Of a stretch of 23,049 nt of DNA, positions 1 through 20,880 are shown in pieces. Under the pieces are notes generated by a model. The model was not told where the DNA came from and did no database searches. It worked only from the letters and a program-made list of their open reading frames with translations. The first letter of the stretch is position 1. Every line of letters begins with the position of its first letter. Source of the stretch: a virus. Both the position numbers and the translations under genes were made by a program. Location: IMG/VR virus record IMGVR_UViG_3300025881_001273, positions 1 through 23,049 of that record; one strand, 5' to 3'.

Positions 1-54
1 GTTCGGCTCTGCGAAGGTGTCAAGTCGATGATTTGGGACCGTCGTAACCTGTAA
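1..54 (+). CDS. C-terminal end of an unidentified upstream gene (partial)
   Basis: The frame is open from the first base and ends at a TAA at 52-54, giving 17 residues that end in WDRRNL. A short hairpin and a two-hairpin element follow directly, which is what follows real stop codons elsewhere in this region. That placement is the main support for it being a gene end. The fragment is too short to assign a family, and an open frame of this length can occur by chance. Confidence 0.35.
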   Translation, partial: VRLCEGVKSMIWDRRNL

Positions 55-161
55 TCAGCTTCGCTGATCGCAGCGGGAACTTCCTTCCTGTGAAGCAATT
101 CACGGGAAGGAGGTTCACGAAGCGATTTGCTTCATCCCTTCACGCCATTCTGGTGTGAAGG
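54..161 (+). repeat. Intercistronic hairpin element 1 (four hairpins in series)
   Basis: A 6-bp hairpin (54-59/63-68) is followed by a 17-bp stem with two G-U pairs (78-94/99-115) closed by a GCAA tetraloop. Three bases later comes the short hairpin GAAGC-GATTT-GCTTC (119-133), then an 11-bp stem with a 3-nt loop (137-147/151-161). It ends just before the SD of the 77-aa gene. This is the first of nine elements of this design in the first 5.2 kb. No U-run follows the large stem, so it is not a textbook intrinsic terminator. Confidence 0.8.
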
Positions 162-179
162 AACACATAGGAGAAGACC

Positions 180-413
180 TTGCCCGACGAAATTGAATGC
201 GAAAAGTGCTTTCAGCTCGATCTCGACATTTACACGGAGATCTGCTGTGGCTGTGGCGACTGTGCCAGTAACGCCGAACATGCGGCATCGAAGATTGATG
301 CGTGCCCCTGTGAAGCATCCAGTCCCGACTGGGAAGCTGACTGGCTTGCAGAGCACCGTGATTGTGCCGAAGACTCCGATTGCGGCTGTAAAGGCTTCAT
401 GAGCAGGGACTGA
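180..413 (+). CDS. Cysteine-rich small protein, probably metal-binding
   Basis: This 77-aa protein appears to start at TTG, because AGGAG lies at 171-175 with normal spacing and no ATG or GTG fits. It has 11 cysteines: C7 and C10 as C-x2-C, C22, C23, C25 and C28 in a tight cluster, C42 and C44, then C62, C68 and C70. It is otherwise acidic. Spacing this dense suggests zinc or iron-sulfur binding, or a disulfide-rich fold. No family is recognised and no signal peptide is visible, so a cytosolic metal-binding role is more likely than secretion. Hairpin elements bracket the gene on both sides. Confidence 0.65.
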   Translation: MPDEIECEKCFQLDLDIYTEICCGCGDCASNAEHAASKIDACPCEASSPDWEADWLAEHRDCAEDSDCGCKGFMSRD

Positions 414-427
414 GCGAGTGGCAGCGT

Positions 428-510
428 GATCCTGCAGGGCCTGAGTGGCTCTGCGGGATCCCGAAGCAGCTTGCTTCATGGTTACCGTGCCGCATTATGC
501 ATACGGTAAC
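428..510 (+). repeat. Intercistronic hairpin element 2
   Basis: A 14-bp stem with two G-U pairs (428-441/447-460, loop TGAGT) is followed two bases later by the short hairpin GAAGCA-GCT-TGCTTC (463-477). A third inverted repeat, GTTACCGT/ACGGTAAC (481-488/503-510), comes next. It begins 14 bases after a stop codon, is preceded by GCAGCG, and ends directly upstream of a promoter-like sequence. Here it could separate the upstream transcript from the next one. Confidence 0.8.
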
Positions 511-513
511 GAT

Positions 514-543
514 TTGACGGCTCGGCAGTTTCCGTAGTATGGT
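514..543 (+). promoter_or_regulatory. Putative phage promoter P1
   Basis: TTGACG at 514-519 and TATGGT at 538-543 are separated by 18 bases. The -35 box sits in the longer string GATTTGACG, and CCGTAG lies directly before the -10. The same GATTTGAC and CCGTRG arrangement recurs near 1133 and 4143. It lies 54 bases upstream of the next start codon and directly after a hairpin element. Confidence 0.6.
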
Positions 544-596
544 GATTGCCGTCGCCGATTCAACTCGGACCAACCACACATAACAGGAGGTGGCCA

Positions 597-776
597 ATGG
601 CTACTAGCTCCACAGTTTCCCCCGTCAGTACGGCTGTGATGCCGAAGACCGTCGTAGACGCCGAAGCAGTGTTCTTCGACTGGGACTACGATTTCCCCCG
701 CATGAAGTCTTCACAGGACGCCATCTGGGACGGAGATTGCTTCTACGACGAAGTCGTCTGCGAGAATCCCTTCTAG
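597..776 (+). CDS. Small acidic hypothetical protein
   Basis: The start is ATG 597, chosen because AGGAGG at 585-590 is well spaced; an in-frame codon at 546 lies within the promoter zone. The product is 59 aa. Its first 20 residues are rich in Ser, Thr and Val, and its second half is acidic and aromatic, including FFDWDYDF and CFYDEVVCENPF with two cysteines. No family is recognised. It is the first gene after promoter P1 and lies 47 bases before the next small gene, so the two are probably co-transcribed. Small acidic early proteins in phages often bind host proteins, but nothing specific is visible here. Confidence 0.6.
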   Translation: MATSSTVSPVSTAVMPKTVVDAEAVFFDWDYDFPRMKSSQDAIWDGDCFYDEVVCENPF

Positions 777-823
777 GGCCGTCGCGGTATCACAGGAACC
801 AACCACACACATAGGAGGTCACC

Positions 824-1009
824 ATGACAGGTGGCAGAGATTCAGCTACTACGAAGTTCCTTCGTAACAGGGACCGAAACAACGACGGCCAATGCACCCA
901 CTGCCGCCCCAACAGGGGCTGCTGTGACGATAACAAGCGTGACGGCAAATGGATCTCCGATGGAGATCGTGCAGTGTTTCGACCGTCGAAAGACAAGCGT
1001 CGCAAGTGA
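824..1009 (+). CDS. Small basic Cys4 zinc-finger-like protein
   Basis: Two frames overlap here. ATG 824 is preferred because AGGAGGT at 813-819 and the leader ACACACATAGGAGGTCA match those of other genes in this region. The 61-aa product has C24-x2-C27 followed by C33 and C34, embedded in Arg, Asn and Asp residues, and ends in a strongly basic tail (KDKRRK). This looks like a small zinc-binding nucleic-acid-associated protein, but no named family is recognised. The alternative frame starting at 831 gives a low-complexity Thr/Ala protein without a usable SD and is probably a shadow. Confidence 0.6.
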   Translation: MTGGRDSATTKFLRNRDRNNDGQCTHCRPNRGCCDDNKRDGKWISDGDRAVFRPSKDKRRK

Positions 1010-1018
1010 TTGCAGCGG

Positions 1019-1068
1019 GAAGCCTTCACACGGCAATCGTGTGAGGGTTTCACGAAGCACTCAGCTTC
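1019..1068 (+). repeat. Intercistronic hairpin element 3
   Basis: A 14-bp stem with two G-U pairs (1019-1032/1038-1051, loop GCAAT) is followed after two bases by GAAGC-ACTCA-GCTTC (1054-1068). It starts 10 bases after the TGA of the 61-aa gene and is preceded by GCAGCG. The stem arms differ in sequence from the other copies but still pair. Confidence 0.8.
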
Positions 1069-1132
1069 AACGGGCTGCCCGCCAACTAGGCACCCGTACA
1101 TAGCGACTCTTACCTACGGTGGGCCAGCCGAT

Positions 1133-1162
1133 TTGACTGGTTGGCTTGCCGTGGTGTAAGGT
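1133..1162 (+). promoter_or_regulatory. Putative phage promoter P2
   Basis: TTGACT at 1133-1138 sits in GATTTGACT, with TAAGGT at 1157-1162 after 18 bases. CCGTGG at 1149-1154 matches the conserved segment of P1 and P3 but is shifted by two bases, so TGTAAG (1155-1160) is an alternative -10. An inverted repeat GCCGT/ACGGC (1148-1152/1163-1167) spans the -10 and could be an operator. It lies about 80 bases upstream of the Gp88-like gene. Confidence 0.6.
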
Positions 1163-1240
1163 ACGGCAGAAATTCGAAACCCCGAGACGCCGACCAAGGC
1201 ATCTCGACATACACACAATGGCTTCACAGGAGGCTCACAT

Positions 1241-2104
1241 ATGAAAGCTGCAACATTCCAACTATCGATGATCCGAACTTTGTTCGTCTTCATCAGTACC
1301 ACTCTTGGTGGCGGCAAAGCGCCGTACCTCTTCACACCTCAGCATGCCAGCACCAAGCTGAACCACAACCGAGATGTGACCGACGATTTCGAGCAGATCG
1401 TTTGTTACATGTTGCCTCACACCCTAGCCAAGCGGCTCTATGAGCTGCTGTGGACGGGGCCTACGATGTCGGTCAAGTTTCGGAACGTTTGCCGCTCTTC
1501 AACCAGAGGTTGCAGGGCAGCTTGCCTTCACACTTCGGGCCGTCTGGCCATGGCCGAAATAGCGAAGCTAGCCAGAACGGTGCTGTTCTCCATGACACAC
1601 CTCACAGACGGCGACTACTCAGCCTTCTGGCGGCTCGCCGACGCCGAGATCACACGAAACAAGGCCCGTGTGGCAGCCAAGGGCAAGACGCTGGTCGTTC
1701 GTGTCAACGGAACGTCCGATGTCGAGATCCCTGGCTGGATCCTTCGGAAGCATCACGATGTGATCTTCTCGGATTACACGAAGCACGAGGATGTGAAGCT
1801 GAGCTGGTCCCTACGGCACCCCAACCAGTACCGAGTCTTTTCCGCCACGGAGAACACGCCGATATCACAGATCCGTACCCTGCTGGAAGCTGGCCACAAC
1901 GTAGTTGTCCCGTTCGACATCGTCCCGAAGGGCGAGATGATCGCCGAGTGGCACGGCATGCCTGTCATCGACGGTGACAAGCACGACCTTCGGTTCCTCG
2001 ACGAGCCTGGCAACATCGTCGGTCTTCGGTACAAGCTGCCCCGTGACCGTAGCGTCAACCATCACGGCTTCATACAGGAGACGGCAGTCTCCCTAGTTGC
2101 CTGA
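1241..2104 (+). CDS. Gp88-like (DUF7227-type) phage protein
   Basis: This 287-aa protein starts at ATG 1241 behind AGGAGG at 1228-1233. Its centre and C-terminus carry the signature I associate with the mycobacteriophage Gp88/DUF7227 family: C84, then GCRAACLHTSGR (C91, C95; residues 90-101), VRVNGTSD (153-160), DYTK (178-181), a 'PNQYRVFSATEN' segment near 195-205, VVVPFDI (221-227) and VIDGDKHDLRFLD (242-254). Family function is unknown; the conserved cysteines could hold a metal or cluster. The first 80 residues lack the CPG-type cysteine motifs seen in longer relatives, so this may be a short version. It is the first gene after promoter P2. Family assignment is by motif memory and moderately sure. 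Confidence 0.75.
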   Translation: MKAATFQLSMIRTLFVFISTTLGGGKAPYLFTPQHASTKLNHNRDVTDDFEQIVCYMLPHTLAKRLYELLWTGPTMSVKFRNVCRSSTRGCRAACLHTSGRLAMAEIAKLARTVLFSMTHLTDGDYSAFWRLADAEITRNKARVAAKGKTLVVRVNGTSDVEIPGWILRKHHDVIFSDYTKHEDVKLSWSLRHPNQYRVFSATENTPISQIRTLLEAGHNVVVPFDIVPKGEMIAEWHGMPVIDGDKHDLRFLDEPGNIVGLRYKLPRDRSVNHHGFIQETAVSLVA

Positions 2105-2123
2105 CGTAGTCGACGGCGACGGC

Positions 2124-2169
2124 GACGGCATCGCCCTGTGTGGTGGTGCCGTCTCCGATGCTCTGCATC
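2124..2169 (+). repeat. Intercistronic hairpin element 4
   Basis: A 12-bp stem (2124-2135/2142-2153, two G-U pairs, loop CTGTGT) is followed three bases later by the short hairpin GATGC-TCT-GCATC (2157-2169). The design matches the other elements, but the second hairpin has a different sequence. It lies between the Gp88-like gene and the 80-aa zinc-ribbon-like gene. A short GACGGC tandem repeat precedes it. Confidence 0.7.
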
Positions 2170-2194
2170 ACTCACATATACAGAAAGAAGCACC

Positions 2195-2437
2195 ATGACA
2201 TACCTCAACATGCCTTCGGCATCCATCACCCACCTCACAGCCAAATGCACCCAGTGCGGCCACGAAGAAGGCTGCGGAGTGCCCACCGCTGCCTTCAAGG
2301 CATACAAGCGAGGCGGCTCAGTCCAGTCTCACTTCCCCGTAGGGGAATACACGGCCCAGAACCGTGAAGTGATCATGGACAACGTCCCCCGTCCCTTCCC
2401 GCACTTCCTGTGTGGCCCCTGCTGGGACGAGCTGTAG
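2195..2437 (+). CDS. Small zinc-ribbon-like protein
   Basis: ATG 2195 is preferred because AGAAAGAAG lies just upstream; a longer frame from 2138 would begin inside the hairpin element. The 80-aa product has CTQCG (C18, C21), C27, and near the C-terminus LCGPCWDEL (C73, C76). Two C-x2-C knuckles about 50 residues apart are typical of zinc-ribbon proteins. The segment between them is probably a small beta fold. A C-terminal CGPCW-type ending is common in small actinophage proteins of unknown function. The role may be nucleic-acid binding, which is an inference. Confidence 0.65.
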   Translation: MTYLNMPSASITHLTAKCTQCGHEEGCGVPTAAFKAYKRGGSVQSHFPVGEYTAQNREVIMDNVPRPFPHFLCGPCWDEL

Positions 2438-2443
2438 ACGACT

Positions 2444-2511
2444 CTCACTCCGTCCCCTTCGGGGGGCGGGATGAGGGATGCTCTGCATCACACACCGAAG
2501 CACTCCGCTTC
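2444..2511 (+). repeat. Intercistronic hairpin element 5 (three hairpins)
   Basis: A 14-nt-arm stem (2444-2457/2462-2475) with one C-A mismatch and two G-U pairs is closed by a C(TTCG)G tetraloop, one of the most stable RNA loops. It is followed one base later by GATGC-TCT-GCATC (2477-2489), identical to the second hairpin of element 4. GAAGC-ACTCC-GCTTC (2497-2511) comes next, as in the other elements. This copy therefore carries both kinds of short hairpin. Confidence 0.8.
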
Positions 2512-2532
2512 ACATACATGAAAGGATCGACT

Positions 2533-3150
2533 ATGTCGATCGGAACTGTCCCATCCACCCTCAACGGCCAACGTGTGGTCGCCGCGTTCCTGCAAGCTGC
2601 AGGGCAAGGCACCGTCCAAGTTTGGCATGGCATCGTCGATGCCCCGAACATGTGCCGAGGCACTCACAACCCTGCACGTCGCTTCGTGTTCTTCACAGAT
2701 GCACGAATCGACGCCGACTCTTGGGGAAGCGGCTCCTACGACTTGTCGTGGGGCGAAGCCGTCGTGAAGTTCCAAGCCAAGCTTCACAGCCAGCGGCACG
2801 CCATGCAGTACAGCTTCGTTGCCGAAGGCTACAGCCTGAATGGCACCGTCGACGGCTTGGCAGCTCAGATGCTGAGTGAGTACGCCGTCAGCCACGGCGA
2901 CAGGCTCGACTCACAGACTGTGCGGCTGGTGCAAGACGATCAGCCACACCCCGTCGACATCGTCGAAGGTGCAAACGCCTTCATCGCTGCCACAGAGATG
3001 GGCGAAGCGTCAACGGCCATGGTCCGTCGGCTCACACACAGCATGCACAAGTTCGGCTGCTTGTACGGCGAGACGGAAGCCGACGGCACCGAAGTCGTCT
3101 GCCACGGCTGTGAAGCGTACGACGTAGTCGTAGACCGCTGGTCGCTCTGA
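2533..3150 (+). CDS. Hypothetical protein, 205 aa
   Basis: ATG 2533 follows AAGGA at 2522-2526; an in-frame ATG at 2518 has no SD. No family is recognised. The protein is soluble, without membrane segments. It has a Trp/Phe-rich first half containing SWGSGSYDLSWGEA near residues 56-69 and a repetitive alpha-type middle. Two C-terminal cysteines lie in the segment VVCHGCEAY (C-x2-C). The start codon is inside a perfect 7-bp inverted repeat (2525-2531/2535-2541), which could control initiation. Hairpin elements lie on both sides of the gene, so it may be a single-gene transcript unit. Confidence 0.65.
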   Translation: MSIGTVPSTLNGQRVVAAFLQAAGQGTVQVWHGIVDAPNMCRGTHNPARRFVFFTDARIDADSWGSGSYDLSWGEAVVKFQAKLHSQRHAMQYSFVAEGYSLNGTVDGLAAQMLSEYAVSHGDRLDSQTVRLVQDDQPHPVDIVEGANAFIAATEMGEASTAMVRRLTHSMHKFGCLYGETEADGTEVVCHGCEAYDVVVDRWSL

Positions 3151-3159
3151 GTACAGCGG

Positions 3160-3207
3160 GATCCCTGCAGGCATCTGTCTGTGGGGATCACGAAGCACTC
3201 AGGCTTC
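3160..3207 (+). repeat. Intercistronic hairpin element 6
   Basis: An 11-bp stem with two G-U pairs (3160-3170/3179-3189, 8-nt loop) is followed after two bases by GAAGC-ACTCAG-GCTTC (3192-3207). CAGCG precedes it shortly after the TGA of the 205-aa gene. It ends eight bases before the AGGAAG that serves the 74-aa gene. Confidence 0.8.
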
Positions 3208-3231
3208 ACCTACACAGGAAGACACACACAC

Positions 3232-3456
3232 ATGACCACCCCGAAGACCATCCTTGAGTCCCGAATCCACATCCCCTTGGTCGATCTGCAAGCCGCTCTG
3301 CGGCACGACATGCGGGTCGCCACAGACGAGGGTTTCCCGAACGTCGCTGCCAGAGCCAAGGCCGTCCTGCTAGAGATCGACAAAGTCCTCGAAGCCCACG
3401 GCACCTTCGTCAGCGCATCCATCGTCATCGCCTCCGCTCAGGACGGTGAAGCGTGA
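3232..3456 (+). CDS. Small helical hypothetical protein
   Basis: This 74-aa protein starts at ATG 3232, with AGGAAG at 3216-3221 about ten bases upstream. It looks mostly alpha-helical, with an amphipathic stretch from about residue 17 to 55 (VDLQAALRHDMRVATDEG through LLEIDKVLEAHG), and has no cysteine or membrane segment. No family is recognised. Its TGA overlaps the GTG start of the next 38-aa membrane protein, so the two are probably translationally coupled. This suggests, without proving it, a soluble partner for a membrane peptide. Confidence 0.6.
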   Translation: MTTPKTILESRIHIPLVDLQAALRHDMRVATDEGFPNVAARAKAVLLEIDKVLEAHGTFVSASIVIASAQDGEA

Positions 3457-3569
3457 GCCGCATCCACGATGCTGCCTTCGTTGCCGCACTGCTTGCTTTA
3501 GCAATCCTTGCAGCGACTCGGATCCCCTACGTTCTCGGCCCTGATGCCTGCTGGACATCCTGCACATAG
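3453..3569 (+). CDS. 38-aa single-pass membrane peptide
   Basis: A GTG at 3453-3455 overlaps the TGA stop of the previous gene, and the frame runs to TAG at 3567-3569. The product has a hydrophobic span at about residues 8-22 (AAFVAALLALAILAA) followed by RIPYVL and a short tail with two cysteines (CWTSC). There is no clear SD, so translation would depend on coupling to the gene before it. The hydrophobic helix and GTGA overlap make it more than a random frame. A holin-like or host-membrane-targeting role is possible but unproven. Confidence 0.5.
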   Translation: MSRIHDAAFVAALLALAILAATRIPYVLGPDACWTSCT

Positions 3570-3589
3570 GGGCTACTACACAGGGGCGT

Positions 3590-3619
3590 TTGTACAGGGC
3601 TGTGAGGGCTGCGTATAAT
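3590..3619 (+). promoter_or_regulatory. Putative strong sigma-70-type promoter
   Basis: TTGTAC (3590-3595) and a perfect TATAAT (3614-3619) are separated by 18 bases, the same spacing as the three GATTTGAC promoters, though the sequence is otherwise different. It sits in a 158-base gap upstream of the 88-aa gene and points towards it. It is the best -10 match seen in an intergenic region of the window. Confidence 0.6.
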
Positions 3620-3647
3620 GAGAACGCAGTTCTCCAGCCTTGCATTC

Positions 3648-3669
3648 GCGGCTCCCCTCAGGGAGCCGC
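3648..3669 (+). promoter_or_regulatory. Leader hairpin
   Basis: A perfect 9-bp stem (GCGGCTCCC/GGGAGCCGC) with a CTCA loop lies about 25 bases after the predicted transcription start. A second inverted repeat, TGGCTGCT/AGCAGCCA (3694-3701/3704-3711), lies shortly before the start codon at 3728. No U-run follows, so this may be a structured 5' leader, an attenuator or a stability element rather than a terminator. Confidence 0.6.
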
Positions 3670-3727
3670 TCATTAAGAAAGAACCTACAAAGTTGGCTGC
3701 TGTAGCAGCCACAGAAAGAGAGCAGAT

Positions 3728-3994
3728 ATGAGAACAGACATCGGAGCGTTCTGGGGGATCATGGTCATGATCCTGATCACAGGGAGCTGGGTGCTGAGCC
3801 TGTGTCACGAACGCATGAAGAAACGAGAAGCCGACGGCGAAGCCTTCGGCCATGTGCTGGAAGCTGCCATGCATGGCGGCTTCGTGCAGGGCCACAACTT
3901 CACAGACGCAGACATGATCACAGAGGCTCCGCTCCTACCCACGGAGTACCCCGAAGTCCCCAACTACTACGCCGACTGGGAGGTGAAGTCATGA
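3728..3994 (+). CDS. Small membrane-anchored protein
   Basis: This 88-aa protein begins at ATG 3728 behind AAAGAGAG. Residues 8-26 form one hydrophobic segment (FWGIMVMILITGSWVLSL), followed by a basic stretch (HERMKKREADG). This implies a signal anchor with the C-terminal part in the cytoplasm. The rest is acidic, ends in a Pro/Tyr-rich tail (PTEYPEVPNYYADW) and has no recognised domain. It is the first gene after the TATAAT promoter and overlaps the next gene by four bases (ATGA). A role at the host membrane is an inference. Confidence 0.65.
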   Translation: MRTDIGAFWGIMVMILITGSWVLSLCHERMKKREADGEAFGHVLEAAMHGGFVQGHNFTDADMITEAPLLPTEYPEVPNYYADWEVKS

Positions 3995-4122
3995 ACCATT
4001 CAGACCGATCACAGGCAGACAAGCACCAAGAACGTGTGGAGCGTGCCCGTGGCATCTGCGGACCGCTCGCCACCCGCATCATTGCGGAGGAGAGGGACGG
4101 CAACGAGCCTCGACTGTTCTAG
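3991..4122 (+). CDS. Hypothetical 43-aa basic/acidic peptide
   Basis: ATG 3991 overlaps the stop of the membrane-anchored gene (ATGA), with GGGAGGTGAAG just upstream. The frame ends at TAG 4120-4122. The peptide is charged (SQADKHQERVERARG ... IIAEERDGNEP) and probably one amphipathic helix, with a single cysteine. GACT/AGTC (3974-3977/3987-3990) flanks the SD, but four pairs can arise by chance. The tight overlap and good SD are the only support for it being real. Confidence 0.55.
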   Translation: MNHSDRSQADKHQERVERARGICGPLATRIIAEERDGNEPRLF

Positions 4123-4142
4123 GCCCTACGGGAATCCCCGAT

Positions 4143-4172
4143 TTGACGAGCTGCCACCATCCGTGGTAGATT
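4143..4172 (+). promoter_or_regulatory. Putative phage promoter P3
   Basis: TTGACG (4143-4148) within GATTTGACG, then TAGATT (4167-4172) after 18 bases. CCGTGG (4161-4166) lies directly before the -10 and 12 bases after the -35, as in P1. It follows a small CGGG/CCCG inverted repeat after the previous gene and lies about 50 bases before the next start codon. Confidence 0.6.
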
Positions 4173-4223
4173 GATGGGGCAATCAACGCCGAGCAAGTCG
4201 TTCGGCAGACATAGGAGGTCGGC

Positions 4224-4517
4224 ATGCCCGACACGAACACAGACACATCCACCATCACAGACACCGAGACAAGCGAGAAGCAGCGTTGGCGCTTCGTCGT
4301 CTATGGCTACGGCTTCTGGGGTAACGGCAACACCTACGACGAGGCTCTCGACAACGCCGAGAAGCACAACGGGTTCCGTCGCAAAGACGGTCACGTACTC
4401 GTTGCCTTCACTCGGGACGTTCAGGACGTGCAGTGCAGCGTCTTCGGGCTGACATGGAACTGGACATCCGATGGGGTCGGCGACTTCGTCGAGATCCCGA
4501 TGAATAGCTGGAAGTGA
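4224..4517 (+). CDS. Hypothetical protein, 97 aa
   Basis: ATG 4224 follows ATAGGAGGT at 4211-4219. The N-terminus is Thr/Asp-rich and looks disordered for about 17 residues. An aromatic, Gly-rich beta-like segment follows (RWRFVVYGYGFWGNGNTYDEAL), which recalls small phage proteins with a 'WGNG...A' repeat, then a short C-terminal acidic part. No family is assigned. It is the first gene after promoter P3. The start codon is in the loop of a 5-bp inverted repeat, GTCGG/CCGAC (4218-4222/4228-4232). Confidence 0.65.
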   Translation: MPDTNTDTSTITDTETSEKQRWRFVVYGYGFWGNGNTYDEALDNAEKHNGFRRKDGHVLVAFTRDVQDVQCSVFGLTWNWTSDGVGDFVEIPMNSWK

Positions 4518-4519
4518 GC

Positions 4520-4574
4520 GTGCAGGGCACAGGGCCACAGCGACTCTGTGCCTTGCACGAAGTCTTCCGACTTC
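4520..4574 (+). repeat. Intercistronic hairpin element 7
   Basis: A 13-bp stem with one G-U pair (4520-4532/4546-4558, 13-nt loop) is followed with no gap by GAAGTC-TTCC-GACTTC (4559-4574). The identical 16-base short hairpin recurs in element 9. Compared with elements 1-6, the short hairpin has T-C and G-A in place of C and G on the two arms, so the pairing is kept by paired changes. Confidence 0.85.
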
Positions 4575-4582
4575 ACACATAC

Positions 4583-4597
4583 GTACCTTGGAGGTAC
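4583..4597 (+). promoter_or_regulatory. Shine-Dalgarno within an inverted repeat
   Basis: GTACC-TTGGA-GGTAC pairs over five bases, and the SD GGAGG (4590-4594) straddles the loop and the 3' arm. The start codon at 4603 follows eight bases after the SD. Pairing would mask part of the SD. Similar arrangements occur at 5209, 6788, 8568 and on the minus strand at 22682. Confidence 0.6.
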
Positions 4598-4602
4598 ACA
4601 TA

Positions 4603-4896
4603 ATGAACATCGAAATTTGCAATGACGTCGACATTGACGCTGACGAGCTGGTCGAAGAGGCCCGTAGCTCGATCGAGTCGATGATCGAGGACGTGCTGGA
4701 CACCCGAGACGAGGATGCGTCAGAGCTGAGTGCTCATGACATCCGCAACCTGATCGCCGAGGCACAGGCTGCGACCCTGCAGAGCGCAGCGTTCCGCCAT
4801 GCCGTCAGGGAGGCAGTCAAGGTGATGATCGACAGCGGCTTCCTCGTACTCAAGGGGAACGTCGCCATGTACACCGCCCCGTCCGATCTGGCCTGA
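4603..4896 (+). CDS. Hypothetical acidic helical protein, 97 aa
   Basis: ATG 4603 is chosen over an in-frame TTG at 4588 because GGAGG lies at 4590-4594. The N-terminal half is very acidic and helical (DADELVEEARSSIESMIEDVLD) and the middle is Ala/Gln-rich. A more hydrophobic C-terminal half (AVREAVKVMIDSGFLVLKG) ends in a Pro/Ser tail. No family is recognised. The charge and shape would suit a protein-protein interaction role. It lies between two hairpin elements. Confidence 0.6.
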   Translation: MNIEICNDVDIDADELVEEARSSIESMIEDVLDTRDEDASELSAHDIRNLIAEAQAATLQSAAFRHAVREAVKVMIDSGFLVLKGNVAMYTAPSDLA

Positions 4897-4905
4897 TGGC
4901 AGCGT

Positions 4906-4957
4906 CCACCCTGCAGGGCACACACGCTCTGCGGGGTGGGCGAAGTCATTCGACTTC
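4906..4957 (+). repeat. Intercistronic hairpin element 8
   Basis: A 14-bp stem with two G-U pairs (4906-4919/4926-4939, loop ACACAC) is followed after two bases by GAAGTC-ATTC-GACTTC (4942-4957). GCAGCG precedes it within a few bases of the TGA of the 97-aa gene. It lies 25 bases upstream of the ribbon-helix-helix gene. Confidence 0.85.
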
Positions 4958-4982
4958 ACACACAGGAAGCACATACAGACCT

Positions 4983-5138
4983 ATGACCAAGCAACCTCAG
5001 CACAAGGTTCTGGTGGCCCTACCAACGGACCACCACATCCGCATCAAAGAACGTGCAGAAGCCAACGAGCGTTCTGTCAACGGCCAGATCCGTTGGGAGC
5101 TGCGACGCTACGAGGCGGAACGTTCTCTCGGCACCTGA
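4983..5138 (+). CDS. Ribbon-helix-helix (Arc-type) DNA-binding protein
   Basis: This 51-aa protein starts at ATG 4983; AGGAAG at 4963-4968 is the nearest SD and is rather distant. It has the layout of Arc/MetJ proteins: a short beta strand (KVLVALP, residues 8-14), then helix 1 (DHHIRIKERAEANE), a turn with SVN, and helix 2 (GQIRWELRRYEAERS). The length fits the family. Such proteins act as dimers that bind operators and often repress their own genes. Its targets could be the early promoters or the palindrome at 8468, but this is speculation. Hairpin elements flank it. Confidence 0.75.
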   Translation: MTKQPQHKVLVALPTDHHIRIKERAEANERSVNGQIRWELRRYEAERSLGT

Positions 5139-5149
5139 CGGCAGCGTCG

Positions 5150-5199
5150 ATGTCACACAGTCTGCGTACTGTGTGGCATGGGCGAAGTCTTCCGACTTC
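5150..5199 (+). repeat. Intercistronic hairpin element 9
   Basis: An 11-bp stem with one G-U pair (5150-5160/5169-5179, 8-nt loop) is followed after four bases by GAAGTC-TTCC-GACTTC (5184-5199), identical to the short hairpin of element 7. GCAGCG lies at 5141-5146. This is the last element of the series; downstream gaps hold only simple hairpins. Confidence 0.85.
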
Positions 5200-5208
5200 A
5201 CACACACA

Positions 5209-5224
5209 TGACCACAGGAGGTCA
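5209..5224 (+). promoter_or_regulatory. Shine-Dalgarno within an inverted repeat
   Basis: TGACC-ACAGGA-GGTCA pairs over five bases and contains the SD AGGAGG (5216-5221), five bases before the last G of which the loop ends. The DUF932 start codon follows at 5229. The arrangement matches the one at 4583. Confidence 0.6.
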
Positions 5225-5228
5225 CATA

Positions 5229-6155
5229 ATGGGAGCAATCCCCGAAACCATGATGAGCAACAGCGGCACCACGCCGTGGCATGGCATCGGAACGGTCATC
5301 GACCGTTTCTGCACAGGCCGTGAAGCTCTGCACCTAGGCGGCATTGCCTGGGGCGTCCACAAGTCATCCCTGTACCTGGGAGGCAGCTACACGCCGTTGG
5401 AAACTCACGTCGCCTTGAAGACGACGGACGGAGCTGTGCTGGATGTCGTCTCACCCAAGTACGAGATCCTGCAGAACACGGAGCTGGCCGACATCGCCGA
5501 CGAGCTGGACCTGAGCGTCCAGACCTGCGGCCAGATGTGGGGCGGCAAGTTCGTCTGGATGCTCGTCGACTTGGGCGAGTCGCCTCGCTTCGACGGCACC
5601 GACGAGGCCATCCACCGTTGGCTGCTCATCTCCACATGGCACGGCAGCGGCTCGTTCCGCATCGAGGGTGTCAACATGCGAGTCGTCTGTGAGAACACGC
5701 TCAAGATCGCTGTCTCTGGCGGCGAGCTGTTCCACAGCATCCAGCACCGTTCATCTGCACAGGAACGTCTGGCCGAGGCGAAGGCTGCACTCGTCGAGAC
5801 GTACACAGCGTTTGACGAGTTCGATGCCTGGGCTGCAGGGCTGATGGACAAGGCGTACAGCCGTGTCACCTTCGGCGAGGAGCTGCTGCCTGCGTTGTTC
5901 CCGAAGCCTGCGGATGACGCCACAGACCGTGTCAAGGCCAACTGGATGGAGCGACGTGCAGACATGCGCCGCATCTTCGATGGGCCGACCATCGGAGGCG
6001 AGCAGACTGCATGGCACTTCCTGCAGACGGTGAACGAGTACGAGCTACACGTACAAGGCAACGACAAGGGCCGTCAGGCTCGCATCGCTGGCAACTGGGC
6101 CAAAGACAACTTCCCGCTGACCAACAAGGCCGCACGGATCCTCGTCCGAGCCTGA
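5229..6155 (+). CDS. DUF932 (phage/plasmid-like) protein
   Basis: ATG 5229 is supported by AGGAGG at 5216-5221; the frame is open further upstream but without an SD. The 308-aa product has the hallmarks of DUF932/TIGR03299 proteins: an N-terminal PWHGIGT motif (residues 16-22), a SPKYEILQN segment near 75-83, a central VNMRVVCENTL segment (about 149-159), a GEELLPALFP region and a closing NEYELHVQGNDKGRQ...NKAARIL stretch. The family is common in phages and plasmids. Its biochemical role is unresolved, though it is often placed among DNA-replication or recombination genes. Here it lies upstream of the nuclease, helicase and primase block. Confidence 0.85.
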   Translation: MGAIPETMMSNSGTTPWHGIGTVIDRFCTGREALHLGGIAWGVHKSSLYLGGSYTPLETHVALKTTDGAVLDVVSPKYEILQNTELADIADELDLSVQTCGQMWGGKFVWMLVDLGESPRFDGTDEAIHRWLLISTWHGSGSFRIEGVNMRVVCENTLKIAVSGGELFHSIQHRSSAQERLAEAKAALVETYTAFDEFDAWAAGLMDKAYSRVTFGEELLPALFPKPADDATDRVKANWMERRADMRRIFDGPTIGGEQTAWHFLQTVNEYELHVQGNDKGRQARIAGNWAKDNFPLTNKAARILVRA

Positions 6156-6166
6156 TAGGCAGCCTC

Positions 6167-6199
6167 TGTGGGGCAGGAGCGTCATGCTCCTGCCCCGCA
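6167..6199 (+). terminator. Strong stem-loop after the DUF932 gene
   Basis: A 14-bp GC-rich stem with a single T-G wobble (6167-6180/6186-6199) has a GTCAT loop and starts 12 bases after the DUF932 stop. It is very stable, but no U-run follows, so termination is uncertain; actinobacterial terminators often lack U-runs. No GAAGC-type hairpin follows, unlike the nine upstream elements. Confidence 0.6.
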
Positions 6200-6231
6200 C
6201 CAACCGTTCACACAGACAGAAAGAAACCGAT

Positions 6232-6414: not shown

Positions 6415-6602
6415 GGCTCGTGTTGAACGTCCACCTGCGTGACGGCCTGCCCGAGGGCAAGGCCGCGTATCTGGAAGCGATGGAAGGCATCGCCGAAACG
6501 ATTCTGGAAGGCTTCCAAGCAAACGACAGGAACGAGTGGTGGGTTACCAGCGTGGCCGTACAGCCCGCTCCCAAGCCGCTCATGCACAGTCGAGACTTGT
6601 AG
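6411..6602 (+). CDS. Hypothetical protein, 63 aa
   Basis: ATG 6411 overlaps the stop of the zinc-ribbon gene (ATGA), which decides the start; a longer open frame upstream is a shadow of that gene. The product starts with a beta-like stretch (MRLVLNVHLRDGL), continues as a helix (AAYLEAMEGIAETILEGF) and ends with WWVTSVAVQPAPKP. This alternation of strand, helix and strand may be a small ferredoxin-like or RHH-like fold, but no family is recognised. A strong hairpin follows directly. Confidence 0.6.
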   Translation: MRLVLNVHLRDGLPEGKAAYLEAMEGIAETILEGFQANDRNEWWVTSVAVQPAPKPLMHSRDL

Positions 6603-6609
6603 GCGACAA

Positions 6610-6642
6610 GCAGCCCGCCGCCCCCACAGGGTGGCGGGCTGC
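6610..6642 (+). terminator. Strong stem-loop after the 63-aa gene
   Basis: A 14-bp GC-rich stem with one G-U pair (6610-6623/6629-6642, loop CCACA) lies seven bases after the stop codon. There is no U-run. It probably acts as a terminator or 3'-end stabiliser and begins a 200-base gene-free stretch. Confidence 0.65.
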
Positions 6643-14337: not shown

Positions 14338-17300
14338 CTAGTTTTCGAAGAACGACGGGTTGTTGCGACGGAACTTCTCAAACTCGACATCCCTCGGGAG
14401 AGTCTCCCGAATACCCGCACCAGAAGTCCAGTTCACAATGTTCTGAAGCCAACGCTCCCCCGACTTCGGGTCGCCCTCCGTGCGGAACAAACGCCTAGTG
14501 GTAGCCATCACAGGCATAAACGATTCAAACCACCGCATGTGTTCCTTCGTGGCAGTCATCACCCCGTCCTCGTCATGCTCGATCATCCCCGCCGCATACA
14601 ACGCAGGAATAGCAGGAGCCAAAATGACCTTCCAAGCACTAGGCAACGGCTCCTGACGGCCCCGATACTCGGCATCGAAGAACAAGTCACGTTTGCCCAA
14701 CATCTCCAAAGGCACCTTGATCAACGGCGAAGTCTGAGCAGCAACCCGCCGCAAGTTAAACGACTCGTCGACATCGGTGAACGGCAGATCGGGAACGAGG
14801 AATATCGAGTTCCCGTTGCGTGTCCACGGCAACTGGATATTGAACCGCTCCGCAATCCACTTCGGCGTGTTCGCCTCACCCTCCGTGTCTTGCTCAATCT
14901 CAGCTTTCAAAGACCCAGCACGATTGTAGATCTTCGGGTTCGTAGCCATCATCTCCAACTGCAACGGCAGATTGTTGCGCGTCCACGTATAGAACGGGAA
15001 CACCCGACGCATCACACCACGCTCAAACGCAGACAAATTGTCGTAATCGAAATGATATTTGAACACGTCAGCCACGGCTTGCTCAATCGTCGCCCCAGTG
15101 GTCAACCTGTCCAACGCCAACGCCCCACGCAAATAGTTCTCAACGTGCATCGTCGGCTTCCGCAACCCACCAGCCACAAGGTTGTTCGGGTTGAACGGAT
15201 TCAAAGCGCCACCCTGACGGGCACCCTTCACAATTCGACCCAGCTCCGTTGTCTGACCGCCAGTCAAGACACCCATCCGAACCATCAACTCCATGTCATT
15301 AAGCAGCTTCGTGCCCTTAGGAGTCTCCTTCAGTTTCAAACCACGTTTACTACTACGCAACGCCATGACCTGCTCATCGACCGTGCCGCCCGCATCCATC
15401 ACCCGACGAACAGGCGTGTACATGCTATGGAACCGCTTATATGAGGAAACAGACACGCCAGCCAACGCATTGTTGAACGTGCCACCCATGAAGTTCCGAG
15501 AATGGAAACCAGGCGACGCAATAGCCCACGCCTTAAACAAGTCGTTGACTTTGTCAACAGAACGCAACAAGAACGACGGGCCGTTACGTGGCCCCATCGT
15601 CTGCCCCAACTCCGAGAACCCCCGAGCAATATCCTCAGGCAACTGGTGAGTCGAACCAAAGTTCACCCAACCATCCATCGCCTTACTCAACATCGTCAAC
15701 CGAGTCGGCATCGACAACGACGAAAACTCGTCAGCCAAAATGTCCCGATACCCCTGACGGAAAATCAGATCCGCCTCAGCCTGCTTCGCCTGCGCCTGTA
15801 GCCGCAACGACTCCGCAGCTAGCAGCTTCTCGTTAGCCTCAGCAGTCACCACACCCTGATGCAAGACACCAAACTGCTTCTGCACGTTGTCGTAGTGCTC
15901 ACGTTCCAGCCTGTCAGCAGTCCTGTAAGCGTCATCGGCTTCGCCCCGAAGCCGAAGCTCTTCCTGCTCCAACTTGATAGAAGCCTCATCGTGGGCATCT
16001 TCCAAATTTCGAATCTTGCGTCGACGATCACGAACAATCTTGCGGTTCTTGTCAGCCTGCCGCTTCGCCTGATCAGCAGCGCCATGCATGTCGCGACCAA
16101 CATCGCCCAAAGCCTCAGCCTCATCAAACTTTTCCTGCATCAACTCCATACGCTTCGTACGCATCAACGCACGAGCATCATCAACGGTCTTCACAAACCC
16201 CGACGAAGTCGTTGCATAAACCTTCCCAGCGCCCAACTCGTTAGCGGCGTCTACAGCACGCCGCAGCTTCTGAGTAGCCTCCATCGTTTCTGAAAGGAAC
16301 TTCTCCTGACCATCGATCATGCTCTTCAAAGACGAAACCAGATCGAGGTCGATCTCTTCGACCACTTCTTGCAGATCGATCAAATCATCGATGTCGTTGA
16401 CACCAAGGTCGTTCAAAGACCGCCTGTACTGCTTACGCATCTGGCCGAGTAGCTGACCAGCACGCCCACGCATAGCGTTCATCCTCGGCAATATGGACGT
16501 GACTTCTCCGCCCCGTAGGCCACCAGTGACCTTAGTCCTTCGCCCCACAGGGTTTGCCAACTCGCCCCACAAGTCAGATTGCTCAGTCAACAAATGCCTA
16601 TAACGGCTTACGGTCCGACCCCAGCCATCTGTATTCAACGACGACATCTCGGCATAAGGGGCCAGATCTTGGAGATCTTGATCGAGCTTGTCGACAGCTC
16701 TATGGAGTTCAGGATCTCCCGCCCCCGACGTTGTCTTTGTGGGTGCCGTGAATGATTCAGAAGCATCTTCAAGGTCTTCCAACACGACCCTGGGTTGCGG
16801 CTGCTCAATCGCCTGTCTGAGAGCGACACCTTCCTGCATCCCGTCGGTGAAATCACCCCCAAGCTTCGCACGGTTGAACCCCGACTCGCTGGTCCCAGGC
16901 AGCCGCGGCGGAATCTCCAACTGGGCATGATCGAAAGTGATAACTCCCCACGAACCCTTATCCTGACGGATCGGGTACAGGATCGAATCGTGACCGCGGC
17001 CCTTCAACTCCTGCTTAAAGTCGCGGGCAACCGACTGCAAGATCTCATCAACATCACTTATGGATCTCCCGCTCGCAGCCCAGTGAGAGTTATTTGTCAG
17101 CGGATAAATGAAGTCATCAAAGAAACCGCCAGCATTCGCCAAGACGGCATCCGACACCGACATGTTCGGAGGAGGCCACTCACGGGCATCATCAGCCTTC
17201 GGGATCCCCTGATAGGTGCCGAGCTTCGCATCAACAGGAGGAACGATCTGCTTCGTTGGATCAAACTTGACCCGATTAGACAACCCACCCTCCAAAGCCG

Positions 17301-20300
17301 CAATTAACTCGATGTACTCATCCTCATGTTTGCCCGAGTGTTGACCACCTGCCTGAGCGGCTTTGAACTTGGAAATAGCCTGATCGCCCTGCTGCTCCAT
17401 GCCACGCAACGTGTCAACAAAGCGACGCCGAAGAGCAGGAGAATCCCAGGGTTCGCCATCGACAGAGTTACTCAACGCCGTCCGCATGAAGTTGTTCGTA
17501 AACTGGGAATCCATCAATTCATCAACGATTCTCGTCGTCGAATCCAACGAACTCTGATCAGCGAACTTGATCGCAGCTTCCGTATACGACAAAGGCCGAG
17601 AAATCACCTTGCGGTTAACGTCGCGGCCCTGCATCAAAAGCCAGATCTCTTTAGCGTGCGGGATCCCAGCGGCTTCCAAATCTTCCAAACCGTAATGGCC
17701 GTTCTTAAACCCCGAATCCAACATGTCGGAATGAATCAAAGCCAAACCAGCACCGCGTGTTCGATGCGACCAATCTGCTGGATCAGGCAGCTTGTTCGCC
17801 GTACTTATGTCGGCAATGGTGCCGCCATAAACGGCAGGGTTATCAGCCCGAACTAGGAACCCCAACAAACTGTCGGATCCCTGAGCGGCCTCACCAAACT
17901 CGCCTGCATACAAAGACGCATACTCGACGTTCTGAGCCGAATGAACACCCAAGAACGAATCCAGCTCAAGAGTAACACGGTCACCCGCAGCAACCTGAGT
18001 ACCCAAATCCATCGAATCAAACTTCGAATTCACCCCGTGATACCAGACGACCTGATCGCCGCCATACGTCAAATAGCCCTTGGCCGAAACACCAAGCTGC
18101 CTGATCCCCAACTCGATCTCAGCCAACAACTCAGGCGCAAGTTCGTCATCCAACAACTCGACAAGTTCGTTAAGTTCATCCGTCAGCTCGTTACGGAGCT
18201 TTTCAGCCTCACGGAAATGCACCCGCTCAGGGGTCCACTCCAACGTGTCCCTAACGGTGCCAGATATTCGGCTATGTGCGACTACAGTCGCATCGATATT
18301 CGTCTTCAAACCCTTGATCTTGTTGTGGAGATCCAACGCAGGCGAACCAAACGATGACACGTTCCCGCTAGGCATACCCAACTGCTTCAGCAAAGGAGAC
18401 AGCTCAGCATTCAACGCTGCAACTACTTCCCGATCAAATGAGCTATCGGAACGATAAATGGCCTCTGTCAACTGCATCGCCCGTTTAGCGACAGCCGACA
18501 TCGCCGTGCCGCCCTCGACAACAGCATTAGCTTTCTTAATCAGCTCCATCGGAGCCTCAGGGTCACCCAACGACAAAATGTAATCAGCGCGAGCCTGTGA
18601 TATCACATCGTCTATCTGACGGATCTCCGTATCCAACTCGCTAAGACGTTCAAGAACCTGAGCCGCACCCTCAAAGTTGTCGTCATAAGCCCTAGCGAGA
18701 TCCGTGCCCTCAGCCCACAACGCCCGACGAGTCTCAGCTAAATCATTCAGCCCCTGCTGAATGCGGTGATACGACATGTCAGCGTCATTCGCTGCCTTCA
18801 AACTAGCCGTAGCAGCACCCTCAAGCTCTTCAACAGCGCCAGCATGCCCCGCATTCAACCTGTCCAACGCTGCACGAGAATCATCAGCAACAGCGTTCAG
18901 ATCGTCACCAGCATCCCGCCACACCTGGCCATTAGTAGGAGGATCCAGATCGACACCCCAACGCTGCGAACGGGCACGCCTAGCCTGCGCCACATCCAAC
19001 GCCGCCTGCACCTGTTCAGCAGTGGAATCAGCAGCTTGAGCGACAGCATGATTGTGCGTCGCCTCAGCATCAGCTACATGCCGTTCCCACTTATAAACCT
19101 GAACCTGCTTCTTTCGGAACGTCGCCAACGCCAAATGGGCTTTGTCATCAGCAACCTCCCGAGTGATCGCTATACCATTAGCGATCAGATAGTTCTCAGC
19201 AAACTTGCCCTGAACCCGTCGAGAAAGCATCGAAATGTGTTGAGGCATAGCCTCAAACCAGTCGTCCGAGAACCACTTAACGATGTCGCCGCCCCACTCC
19301 TGTTCCGCAGACTCCATAATTTCAAGAGCCTGCTCACGAGGAGTTTTCTTGAACGGGTGTGCAGAAGCATCGACCAAAGGGACGCCCATAAAGTCATTGC
19401 CAGCAACAATTTTGGCTTTCATTTCGAAGCTTTGTAGCTTCGTGTTGTCCGCAGCCAAACCGCGACGAGCCTGCCGCGCCCATTCACTAATTCCCTCAGC
19501 AACCTCCTTGGATGGCACTGCAGGCTGCCAATTCTCGCGGTACTTAATCCAATCCTCAACAACAACATTGCCATTAGCGTCAGGCATCTTGTTGACAGTG
19601 ACAGCATTGTTCGCCTCATCGCGAACCATGTCACCAAAGTCTTTCAACTCTCGCCACAAGCCAGCGTCCATCCCTGCAGGGAGAACGTCAGAACCCATAG
19701 CGTTATAAGCGTCCTTGCCGTTGATGTTTGCGTCTACAAGACGCCGAGCAATCGACTGTGCAACATTCTCTAACTGGTTGTTGAGCTGCTTCCCGATGCC
19801 CTTGCCCAAGTTGTTCGCATCGATGCTTAGGAACGCAGCTTTCCAATCGGTGATCGACGAAGTCGGATCCCGAACGATCTTCTTCCAAGTTTGCATGTCG
19901 CCGCCGAACAGGCCACCAAACTTCGAACGACGAATCTTCTGGAACCCCGCGTTCGCCCACGTACGAGGAAGCACCTTGAGCAGCGGGTTGTCCTGCCCCA
20001 AGACCTGCACATATTTGGCTTTGGTCGGGCTGCTACTGAGCCGACTCAAAGTCTTCCCGAAAGGGATCCTGAACTGAAGTCCGCCCTTGATGATGTCGTC
20101 AGCACCCAACAAACCAGCACTCTGGCCTGCTTTAGTCAAACGGGCAAGATCATCGGCTTTAGCTGCACGGATCCCGTGGCCAAAGATCTGCCGAGCAATG
20201 TCGTCAGTCGCTCCGCCGCCTGTCTTCAAACCCAACCTGACGACACCCATAGTGCCCTGGCGAGCTAACGGCAAAGTGCCCAACGTCAACCAAGTAAACG

Positions 20301-20880
20301 GATCCAACACGACATCGCCAACAAACCCAGCGATATTGTCCAGCGGCTTGTAGCCGAACATTTCGATCTCACCCAAGCCAGGTGCCCACTCGTCGAGAAC
20401 GTCACCAAACGTGATTTTCTCATCGAAGGCTTGACGTTTCCAATCGCCCAGCGAAAACGATTCTTCATCGTCAAACAAGTCGCCGACCTCTTTGAGGAGC
20501 GAAATGTTGCTCCGCATCCCCATCGACGCGATATCTAACATCCTTGTGCCAACGTCTAACAGGCTGCCACCAAGCGAGAAATCTTTCGACTCGCCCGCCT
20601 TCAAGAACCCTTCACGCAACGTCGCCAACAACTCATCAGAAAGAACACTGACCCCAGGCTCCCGCCCAGACAACGAAGGGCGCAGGCCCGTCGACGGCAA
20701 AGAACCGCCACCCATACCAACATTGTCAGTAATGGTGTCCGTAGGCTTCCACGCCGCAGGATTATCAGGATCAAAGCTCGCAAACGCTGGATTACGGCTG
20801 GCAATGCGCGTAACAGCAGTCGCCGACATGTTGTGCTTTGCCGCTATATCAGCAATGGCCTGATCAAAAGCTTCACTCAT
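14338..20880 (-). CDS. Giant internal-virion/polyvalent protein with ART-like domain, 2180 aa
   Basis: ATG 20880 overlaps the upstream TGA. The N-terminal 560 residues have short Gly-rich hydrophobic segments (e.g. IAGFVGDVVLDPFTWLTLGTLPLA). Long coiled coils follow at about 575-770 and 1560-1720. Between them, WYHG (Y947, H948), YASLYAG (987-993) and GHDSILYPI...TFDHAQLEI (1296-1323, Q1320, E1322) read like the start, middle and end of an H-Y-E/Q-type ADP-ribosyltransferase fold of phage polyvalent proteins, with a large insertion. The C-terminal region SPGFHSRN (1789-1796) through FPFYTW (1961-1966) is typical of such giant phage proteins. Gene order suggests an ejected internal-virion protein. 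No lysozyme-like motif is visible at the N-terminus. Enzyme activity is inferred. Confidence 0.75.
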   Translation of the reverse strand: MSEAFDQAIADIAAKHNMSATAVTRIASRNPAFASFDPDNPAAWKPTDTITDNVGMGGGSLPSTGLRPSLSGREPGVSVLSDELLATLREGFLKAGESKDFSLGGSLLDVGTRMLDIASMGMRSNISLLKEVGDLFDDEESFSLGDWKRQAFDEKITFGDVLDEWAPGLGEIEMFGYKPLDNIAGFVGDVVLDPFTWLTLGTLPLARQGTMGVVRLGLKTGGGATDDIARQIFGHGIRAAKADDLARLTKAGQSAGLLGADDIIKGGLQFRIPFGKTLSRLSSSPTKAKYVQVLGQDNPLLKVLPRTWANAGFQKIRRSKFGGLFGGDMQTWKKIVRDPTSSITDWKAAFLSIDANNLGKGIGKQLNNQLENVAQSIARRLVDANINGKDAYNAMGSDVLPAGMDAGLWRELKDFGDMVRDEANNAVTVNKMPDANGNVVVEDWIKYRENWQPAVPSKEVAEGISEWARQARRGLAADNTKLQSFEMKAKIVAGNDFMGVPLVDASAHPFKKTPREQALEIMESAEQEWGGDIVKWFSDDWFEAMPQHISMLSRRVQGKFAENYLIANGIAITREVADDKAHLALATFRKKQVQVYKWERHVADAEATHNHAVAQAADSTAEQVQAALDVAQARRARSQRWGVDLDPPTNGQVWRDAGDDLNAVADDSRAALDRLNAGHAGAVEELEGAATASLKAANDADMSYHRIQQGLNDLAETRRALWAEGTDLARAYDDNFEGAAQVLERLSELDTEIRQIDDVISQARADYILSLGDPEAPMELIKKANAVVEGGTAMSAVAKRAMQLTEAIYRSDSSFDREVVAALNAELSPLLKQLGMPSGNVSSFGSPALDLHNKIKGLKTNIDATVVAHSRISGTVRDTLEWTPERVHFREAEKLRNELTDELNELVELLDDELAPELLAEIELGIRQLGVSAKGYLTYGGDQVVWYHGVNSKFDSMDLGTQVAAGDRVTLELDSFLGVHSAQNVEYASLYAGEFGEAAQGSDSLLGFLVRADNPAVYGGTIADISTANKLPDPADWSHRTRGAGLALIHSDMLDSGFKNGHYGLEDLEAAGIPHAKEIWLLMQGRDVNRKVISRPLSYTEAAIKFADQSSLDSTTRIVDELMDSQFTNNFMRTALSNSVDGEPWDSPALRRRFVDTLRGMEQQGDQAISKFKAAQAGGQHSGKHEDEYIELIAALEGGLSNRVKFDPTKQIVPPVDAKLGTYQGIPKADDAREWPPPNMSVSDAVLANAGGFFDDFIYPLTNNSHWAASGRSISDVDEILQSVARDFKQELKGRGHDSILYPIRQDKGSWGVITFDHAQLEIPPRLPGTSESGFNRAKLGGDFTDGMQEGVALRQAIEQPQPRVVLEDLEDASESFTAPTKTTSGAGDPELHRAVDKLDQDLQDLAPYAEMSSLNTDGWGRTVSRYRHLLTEQSDLWGELANPVGRRTKVTGGLRGGEVTSILPRMNAMRGRAGQLLGQMRKQYRRSLNDLGVNDIDDLIDLQEVVEEIDLDLVSSLKSMIDGQEKFLSETMEATQKLRRAVDAANELGAGKVYATTSSGFVKTVDDARALMRTKRMELMQEKFDEAEALGDVGRDMHGAADQAKRQADKNRKIVRDRRRKIRNLEDAHDEASIKLEQEELRLRGEADDAYRTADRLEREHYDNVQKQFGVLHQGVVTAEANEKLLAAESLRLQAQAKQAEADLIFRQGYRDILADEFSSLSMPTRLTMLSKAMDGWVNFGSTHQLPEDIARGFSELGQTMGPRNGPSFLLRSVDKVNDLFKAWAIASPGFHSRNFMGGTFNNALAGVSVSSYKRFHSMYTPVRRVMDAGGTVDEQVMALRSSKRGLKLKETPKGTKLLNDMELMVRMGVLTGGQTTELGRIVKGARQGGALNPFNPNNLVAGGLRKPTMHVENYLRGALALDRLTTGATIEQAVADVFKYHFDYDNLSAFERGVMRRVFPFYTWTRNNLPLQLEMMATNPKIYNRAGSLKAEIEQDTEGEANTPKWIAERFNIQLPWTRNGNSIFLVPDLPFTDVDESFNLRRVAAQTSPLIKVPLEMLGKRDLFFDAEYRGRQEPLPSAWKVILAPAIPALYAAGMIEHDEDGVMTATKEHMRWFESFMPVMATTRRLFRTEGDPKSGERWLQNIVNWTSGAGIRETLPRDVEFEKFRRNNPSFFEN

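Follow-up and report, generated by a model that had tools for sequence, protein, structure and literature searches.

The 23 kb IMG/VR virus record IMGVR_UViG_3300025881_001273 (positions 1–23,049; this whole stretch of DNA is called the window here) carries nine copies of an element lying in the gaps between genes, each made of a long stem (H1) followed by a short hairpin (H2). The window encodes a GP88-like protein, DUF932, a PD-(D/E)XK nuclease, a DnaB-like helicase, a primase-like protein, WhiB and a RusA-like resolvase; because of the WhiB protein and the actinophage relatives of DUF932, the host of the phage is probably actinobacterial. The DUF932 gene is common to the window and six uncultivated IMG/VR relatives (G001–G006), with identities to the window protein of 98% (G001), 94% (G002) and ~67–69% (G003–G006), and the two-hairpin element family is present in all six. 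A search with window positions 1–5240 found no similar DNA in cultured phages, and no Rfam 15 family matched the window at or above its gathering score. The features of the element region, with gene limits as read in this analysis, are as follows.

55–67, + strand: an extra TCAGC/GCTGA hairpin, which precedes element 1
70–133, + strand: element 1, with GCAGCG at 70–75, H1 at 77–116 and a GAAGC H2 at 119–133 (covariance model E = 8e-13, scanner, fold)
411–477, + strand: element 2, with stop codon TGA at 411–413, GCAGCG at 421–426, H1 at 426–462 and H2 at 463–477; another hairpin and a promoter-like site come next downstream (scanner, covariance model, fold)
514–543, + strand: promoter-like site after element 2, TTGACG-18-TATGGT (consensus match only)
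1007–1068, + strand: element 3, with stop codon TGA, GCAGCG at 1012–1017, H1 at 1017–1053 and H2 at 1054–1068 (scanner, covariance model, fold)
2102–2169, + strand: element 4, GATGC type, with stop codon TGA, a GACGGCGAC motif, H1 at 2121–2156 and H2 GATGCtctGCATC at 2157–2169 (scanner, fold)
2435–2511, + strand: element 5, a hybrid, with stop codon TAG and TAGACGAC at 2435–2442, H1 at 2443–2476 and a GATGC H2 at 2477–2489 (scanner, fold)
2497–2511, + strand: added GAAGC hairpin of the other type in element 5, downstream of its GATGC hairpin
3148–3207, + strand: element 6, with stop codon TGA, ACAGCG at 3153–3158, H1 at 3158–3191 and H2 at 3192–3207 (scanner, covariance model, fold)
4507–4574, + strand: element 7, with stop codon TGA at 4515–4517, GAGCG, H1 at 4520–4558 and H2 GAAGTC/GACTTC at 4559–4574 (scanner, covariance model, fold)
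4894–4957, + strand: element 8, with stop codon TGA, GGCAGC at 4898–4903, H1 at 4904–4941 and H2 at 4942–4957 (covariance model E = 1e-18, scanner, fold)
4983–5138, + strand: small gene flanked by elements 8 and 9, Arc-like by a weak Pfam Arc match that falls just short of the cut-off
5136–5199, + strand: element 9, with stop codon TGA, GGCAGC at 5140–5145, H1 at 5146–5183 and H2 at 5184–5199 (scanner, covariance model, fold)

Our scanner, which was not tuned to sequence (a long stem of ≥9 bp with ≤1 mismatch, 0–4 nt, then a short hairpin of ≥5 bp), found exactly nine sites on the + strand of the window, all within 54–5199, and one on the − strand; in 100 dinucleotide shuffles of the 5.24 kb region the mean was 0.01 sites and the maximum one. 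This confirmed the nine-copy two-hairpin family that a first-pass annotation had proposed for the first 5.2 kb, and the fold z-scores of the elements ranged from −3.4 to −7.9. Each copy begins with the stop codon of the preceding gene and a short motif, either CAGC(G) or GACGAC-like; H1 (15–18 bp by the scanner's count) and H2 come next, and in most cases a CA-rich leader then leads up to the following ribosome-binding site. The spacer between H1 and H2 is 0 nt in eight of the nine and 2 nt in element 1. The pairing of H1 is fixed while its sequence is free, and the sequence of H2 is near-constant. Elements 1, 2, 3 and 6–9 make up a GAAG subfamily, in which the stop codon is usually followed by GCAGCG, then by the long stem, a hairpin of the GAAGC or GAAGTC type and, as a rule, an ACACACA-like leader; elements 4 and 5 belong to a GATGC subfamily (TAGACGAC-like 5' motif, long stem, GATGC hairpin) that recurs in all six relatives. 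The GATGC hairpins of elements 4 and 5 had been noticed before, but as a hairpin type and not as a subfamily with a 5' motif of its own, and the claim that the stem sequences differ almost completely holds in part, several long stems sharing a CTGCAG core or being plainly homologous.

The folding of the elements is under strong selection at the RNA level. In an alignment of 17 GAAG-type copies from six genomes, made without structure information, every one of the 14 long-stem pairs had changed on both sides with compensation and 97.1% of cells were paired, with a covariation score of 0.707 (0.219 when shuffled, ≤0.227 in slid registers), and RNAalifold recovered the element structure unaided. 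The long stem contained 42 G-U pairs and no A-C mismatches, so it is the transcript strand that is under selection and not a DNA palindrome. In the short hairpin GAAG/CTTC is kept and the next pair covaries, being C-G or U-A; in the w11–w12 gap, which holds element 7, the window has GAAGTC/GACTTC and the G001 orthologue GAAGTT/AACTTC. A covariance model built from the alignment found 22 sites with E < 2e-8 in the window and its relatives, mostly its own training sequences, one site (E = 0.0019) in an unrelated phage, G014, and, with E values up to 1 allowed, none in the six cultured control phages. Selection on RNA structure, which the first-pass annotation had argued for, has strong support, to which the relatives and the covariance model now add.

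Gene order in the element region differs between the window and its relatives. The elements are where genes have been added, lost or moved, and the crossovers lie in their constant flanks. The Arc-like gene is absent from G001 and G002, each of which retains one fused element: in G001 its stem is that of element 8 and the sequence passes into the leader of element 9 within the H2-ACACACA block, and in G002 its stem is that of element 9 and the join lies at the TGA..GCAGCGTC block, the two crossovers sitting in two different constant flanks of the long stem. Element 5 is itself a junction, between a GATGC-type element and the H2 of a GAAG-type element, and the complete GAAG-type form of its second part precedes the same gene in G001 and G002. 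A homologue of element 4 was found between other genes in G001, G003 and G006, and element 6 has been kept as a unit from stop to start codon in G001 and G002 despite a different next gene. Relative to G002, adjacencies were broken at 7/7 element gaps and 3/7 other gaps (p = 0.035), and relative to G001 at 6/7 and 3/7, respectively (p = 0.13). The association of the elements with shuffling, which had been missed earlier, is clear from the junction sequences and modest by the adjacency count, as the element region is also the accessory region.

The two-hairpin drawing of the first-pass annotation is valid as one fold; however, each copy can apparently adopt a second, mutually exclusive fold involving the stop codon that the annotation did not detect. 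Complementarity links the bases 5' of H1, which include the stop codon and CAGC, to the 5' arm and loop of H2, in a register that is the outward continuation of H1 across an AG/AA internal loop. Fold A is therefore one long irregular hairpin of ~22–27 bp that spans this small internal loop and in most cases pairs the stop codon; it excludes the short hairpin of fold B (H1 plus H2). Among 20 elements 135 of 200 positions of the stop-region/H2 helix pair, and in a slide test in which nine positions were compared register 0 gave 123 pairs and the other registers 30–84. With the 3' parts permuted among elements, none of 20,000 trials reached the observed pairing, and likewise with 13 less redundant rows; a register-free duplex-energy test gave p = 0.013 for the GAAG type, 0.013 for the GATGC type and 0.10 for G014 (combined 0.0012). 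The stop-region helix is clear in element 6 (TGAGT/ACTCA) and in an element of G002 (CUGUAG/CUACAG), and in element 7 GGAAG/CUUCC is swapped for UGAU/AUCA in the G001 orthologue. The stop codon itself lies inside the helix in most copies; in element 7 the paired bases are just 5' of it. In free RNA folding 7/18 elements prefer fold A, and when the stop codon plus 10 nt is masked, which mimics a terminating ribosome, 14/18 form H2 at a probability of ≥0.93. We considered a pseudoknot between the H2 loop and the stop region and rejected it on geometry, reasoning that 0–2 nt would have to span ~5 bp.

There are thus two mutually exclusive conserved folds, as in ribosome-sensing attenuators, and the support for them is good, if short of conclusive given that the copies are related. 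In ribosome-controlled attenuators such as the trp and erm leaders, exclusive helices are chosen by a ribosome at or near a stop codon. The window elements share with these the mutually exclusive helices involving a stop codon, but differ in having no U-run terminator and no clear sequestration of a ribosome-binding site, and in lying at many gene boundaries instead of in one leader.

The sequence following the elements bears on what they could do to transcription. The 8 nt after each element contain 0–3 T and no U-run, and we found no terminator-like site on the + strand of window 1–6200. The distance from the last hairpin to the next start codon is 21–29 nt for six elements and 46 nt for element 1, with no promoter, so that transcription must pass these seven; the next gene lies 119 nt beyond element 2 and 172 nt beyond element 3, and both of these elements precede promoter-like sites. 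Given the lack of U-runs and of promoter room in 7/9 elements, efficient termination is unlikely, which supports the earlier view that these are not classic terminators. Promoter-like sites at window 511–520, 1130–1139 and 4140–4149 share an extended CGATTTGAC −35 region and perhaps constitute one early-promoter family. The ribosome-binding sites after elements 7 and 9 sit in small hairpins of their own (window 4580–4597, GTACC/GGTAC, and 5208–5223, TGACC/GGTCA), and similar ribosome-binding-site hairpins precede genes in G003–G005.

The alternative that survives best, although we consider it unlikely, is that the elements act as intrinsic terminators of the U-less kind ("I-shaped" or tandem), or attenuate partially, and so lower expression in steps along the operon; folds A and B would be the antiterminator and terminator of an attenuator that senses the ribosome at each gene boundary. 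Stable stems a few nt from stop codons, the mutually exclusive folds and the position of elements 2 and 3 before promoter-like sites are consistent with this. Mycobacteria are said in a review to use mainly U-less terminators ≤50 bp from the stop codon (PMC12288462), and those proposed there are GC-rich stems without a U-tract just after the stop codon, a description that the GC-rich, U-tract-free window stems match. However, the same review records that termination by U-less stems in mycobacteria is contested (Czyz 2014, cited in PMC12288462), and the window elements differ from these terminators in being mostly operon-internal, before genes without their own promoter. Since 7/9 elements leave no room for such a promoter, any termination must be partial; the absence of U-runs and of a canonical + strand terminator in 1–6200 also speaks against this explanation.

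A translational coupling switch, in which fold A is opened by the ribosome completing the upstream gene so that H2 can form and initiation on the following gene is altered, appears to us slightly less probable again. It would account for the pairing, with covariation, between the stop codon and the H2 loop region that most copies show and for the preference for H2 under the ribosome mask, and ribosome-binding sites of the form GGAG or GAAG are weakly complementary to the CTTC of H2. However, that CTTC-GGAG pairing is just 4 bp, elements 2 and 3 are too far from the next gene to sit comfortably with it (119 and 172 nt), and the idea that a switch works by sequestering the next ribosome-binding site was not supported, the predicted accessibility of that site changing little between the folds. 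That the elements serve mainly as seams for recombination at the DNA level, or form cruciforms that a resolvase cuts, with incidental RNA structure, is improbable, for while synteny breaks and crossovers fall at the elements, the adjacency counts point the same way and a RusA-like resolvase is encoded in the window, a DNA cruciform would not favour G-T over A-C as the long stem does, and location in the accessory region alone accounts for part of the association.

The most likely reading, to which we give a probability of about 0.5, is that the elements are intercistronic mRNA processing or insulation elements acting post-transcriptionally. The nine copies would represent one cis-acting RNA family built into a polycistronic early mRNA, each element serving as a post-transcriptional insulator between neighbouring genes by acting as a barrier to 3'-5' decay and/or as a double-strand processing site. 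The choice of fold may be set by ribosome occupancy of the stop codon, and the constant flanks may double as recombination seams; each small gene would then be an autonomous mRNA cassette that could be swapped without disturbing its neighbours. RNase III sites, 3'-end stabilisers and attenuators, the functions put forward by the first-pass annotation, are all still candidates. The intercistronic RNase III sites of T7 are stable hairpins between the genes of one polycistronic early transcript, and a site of this type spans some two helical turns of duplex, commonly containing an internal loop. Fold A, an irregular duplex with a small internal loop, may resemble these sites and could be such a substrate. 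Unlike the T7 sites, the window elements have an H1 of limited length, a near-constant second hairpin and a stop codon that is part of fold A.

Several points weigh against processing or insulation. H1 alone (15–18 bp) is short for an RNase III site, 11/18 elements show no preference for fold A in free RNA, and the predicted accessibility of the next ribosome-binding site barely differs between the folds. In addition, the copies are related and the permutation tests treat them as exchangeable, so the p-values are optimistic. More tentatively, each element may be a ribosome-termination-sensing RNA switch, with the upstream stop codon in a helix with the H2 loop region, that serves as a standard exchangeable connector between small genes; we regard this as possible, with the balance somewhat against it. 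There is a real chance that such a stop-codon switch is new, and if the stop-codon helix is used it would be a new arrangement among ribosome-controlled RNA switches. If the processing or insulation reading is true, phages would keep exchangeable small genes independently expressed in one transcript by means of a standard RNA connector, at once insulator and recombination seam, and how modular phage genomes function after gene swaps would become directly testable.

The earlier judgement that no described element matches was not contradicted by the Rfam, cultured-phage and literature searches, and the described elements nearest in spirit are the promoter early stem loops (PeSLs) of T4-type phages and the repeats that occupy gaps in Cluster O, Cluster K and Microbacterium phages. 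PeSLs are stem-loops in small early gene gaps that are regarded as mediating gene shuffling, and they are described as an early promoter plus a stem-loop, called promoter-terminator motifs by their authors (PMC4503421). Like PeSLs, the window elements sit in the gaps of small early genes at gene-shuffling sites (crossovers and synteny breaks); unlike them, 7/9 have no promoter and none has a U-run, and their design adds a second hairpin, constant flanks and an alternative stop-codon fold. Actinophage gap repeats occur in many copies in short gaps of the small-gene arm, e.g., the 17-bp palindromes of Cluster O, where recombination between repeats was noted, the SAS/ESAS of Cluster K and the repeats of Microbacterium EC/EG/EI (PMC4351075, PMC7302621). 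The window elements are likewise many-copy in short small-gene gaps, but those repeats are sequence-conserved and presumed protein-binding or start-associated, whereas the window long stem is conserved in pairing and not in sequence; an invariant palindrome of the Cluster O kind is not what we observe, all 14 H1 pairs varying with compensation.

At least two further genomes, of actinophages or actinophage-like phages, have analogous gap hairpins, which the first-pass annotation also overlooked. One, G014 (IMGVR_UViG_3300031942_000005), is an unrelated IMG/VR record of 57.6 kb with about nine two-hairpin gaps of the same design and constant sequences of its own (CCCGACCAGG, stem, CCGGG..CCCGG, ACACACAGGAG); several of these gaps show complementarity between the H2 arm and the motif that follows the stop codon. 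The other is the cultured Streptomyces phage Gilson (MK061412, 90000–128338), in which ~30 of 39 AAGCTT sites lie directly after a variable gap hairpin of 5–11 bp and before the next ribosome-binding site, with 23 G-U pairs and 2 A-C mismatches in these hairpins. We regard the Gilson hairpins as a cultured analogue of the window elements, and with this similar gap architecture in a cultured phage related experiments are possible now. The literature searched contained no description of the G014 or Gilson arrays. Among viral contigs, a strict GAAG-type pattern scan returned four known relatives only, a GATGC pattern scan returned the clade and G014 with its own array, the remainder being chance, and a loose DNA pattern scan gave chance matches only. 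We also attribute 91 pattern matches in bacterial and archaeal genomes to chance, as the long stem was present in 0/80 of the stretches examined. The element was not found in more distant phages with a related DUF932 protein, nor the array in the cultured controls Arthrobacter Prairie and Arthrobacter Mufasa8, Microbacterium Kozie, Mycobacterium Giles and T7 (T7 by scanner).

Elsewhere in the window, a 2180-residue protein encoded on the − strand at 14338–20880 had no PHROG match and one weak partial relative in phage records (28.7% identity over 15% of its length). At 6596–6641 a CTTGTaggcgACAAG hairpin surrounds a TAG stop codon and a long GC stem follows directly, a reversed-order relative of the G004 element at 15621; in that G004 element CTTGT can alternatively pair with ACAAG in the H2 loop.

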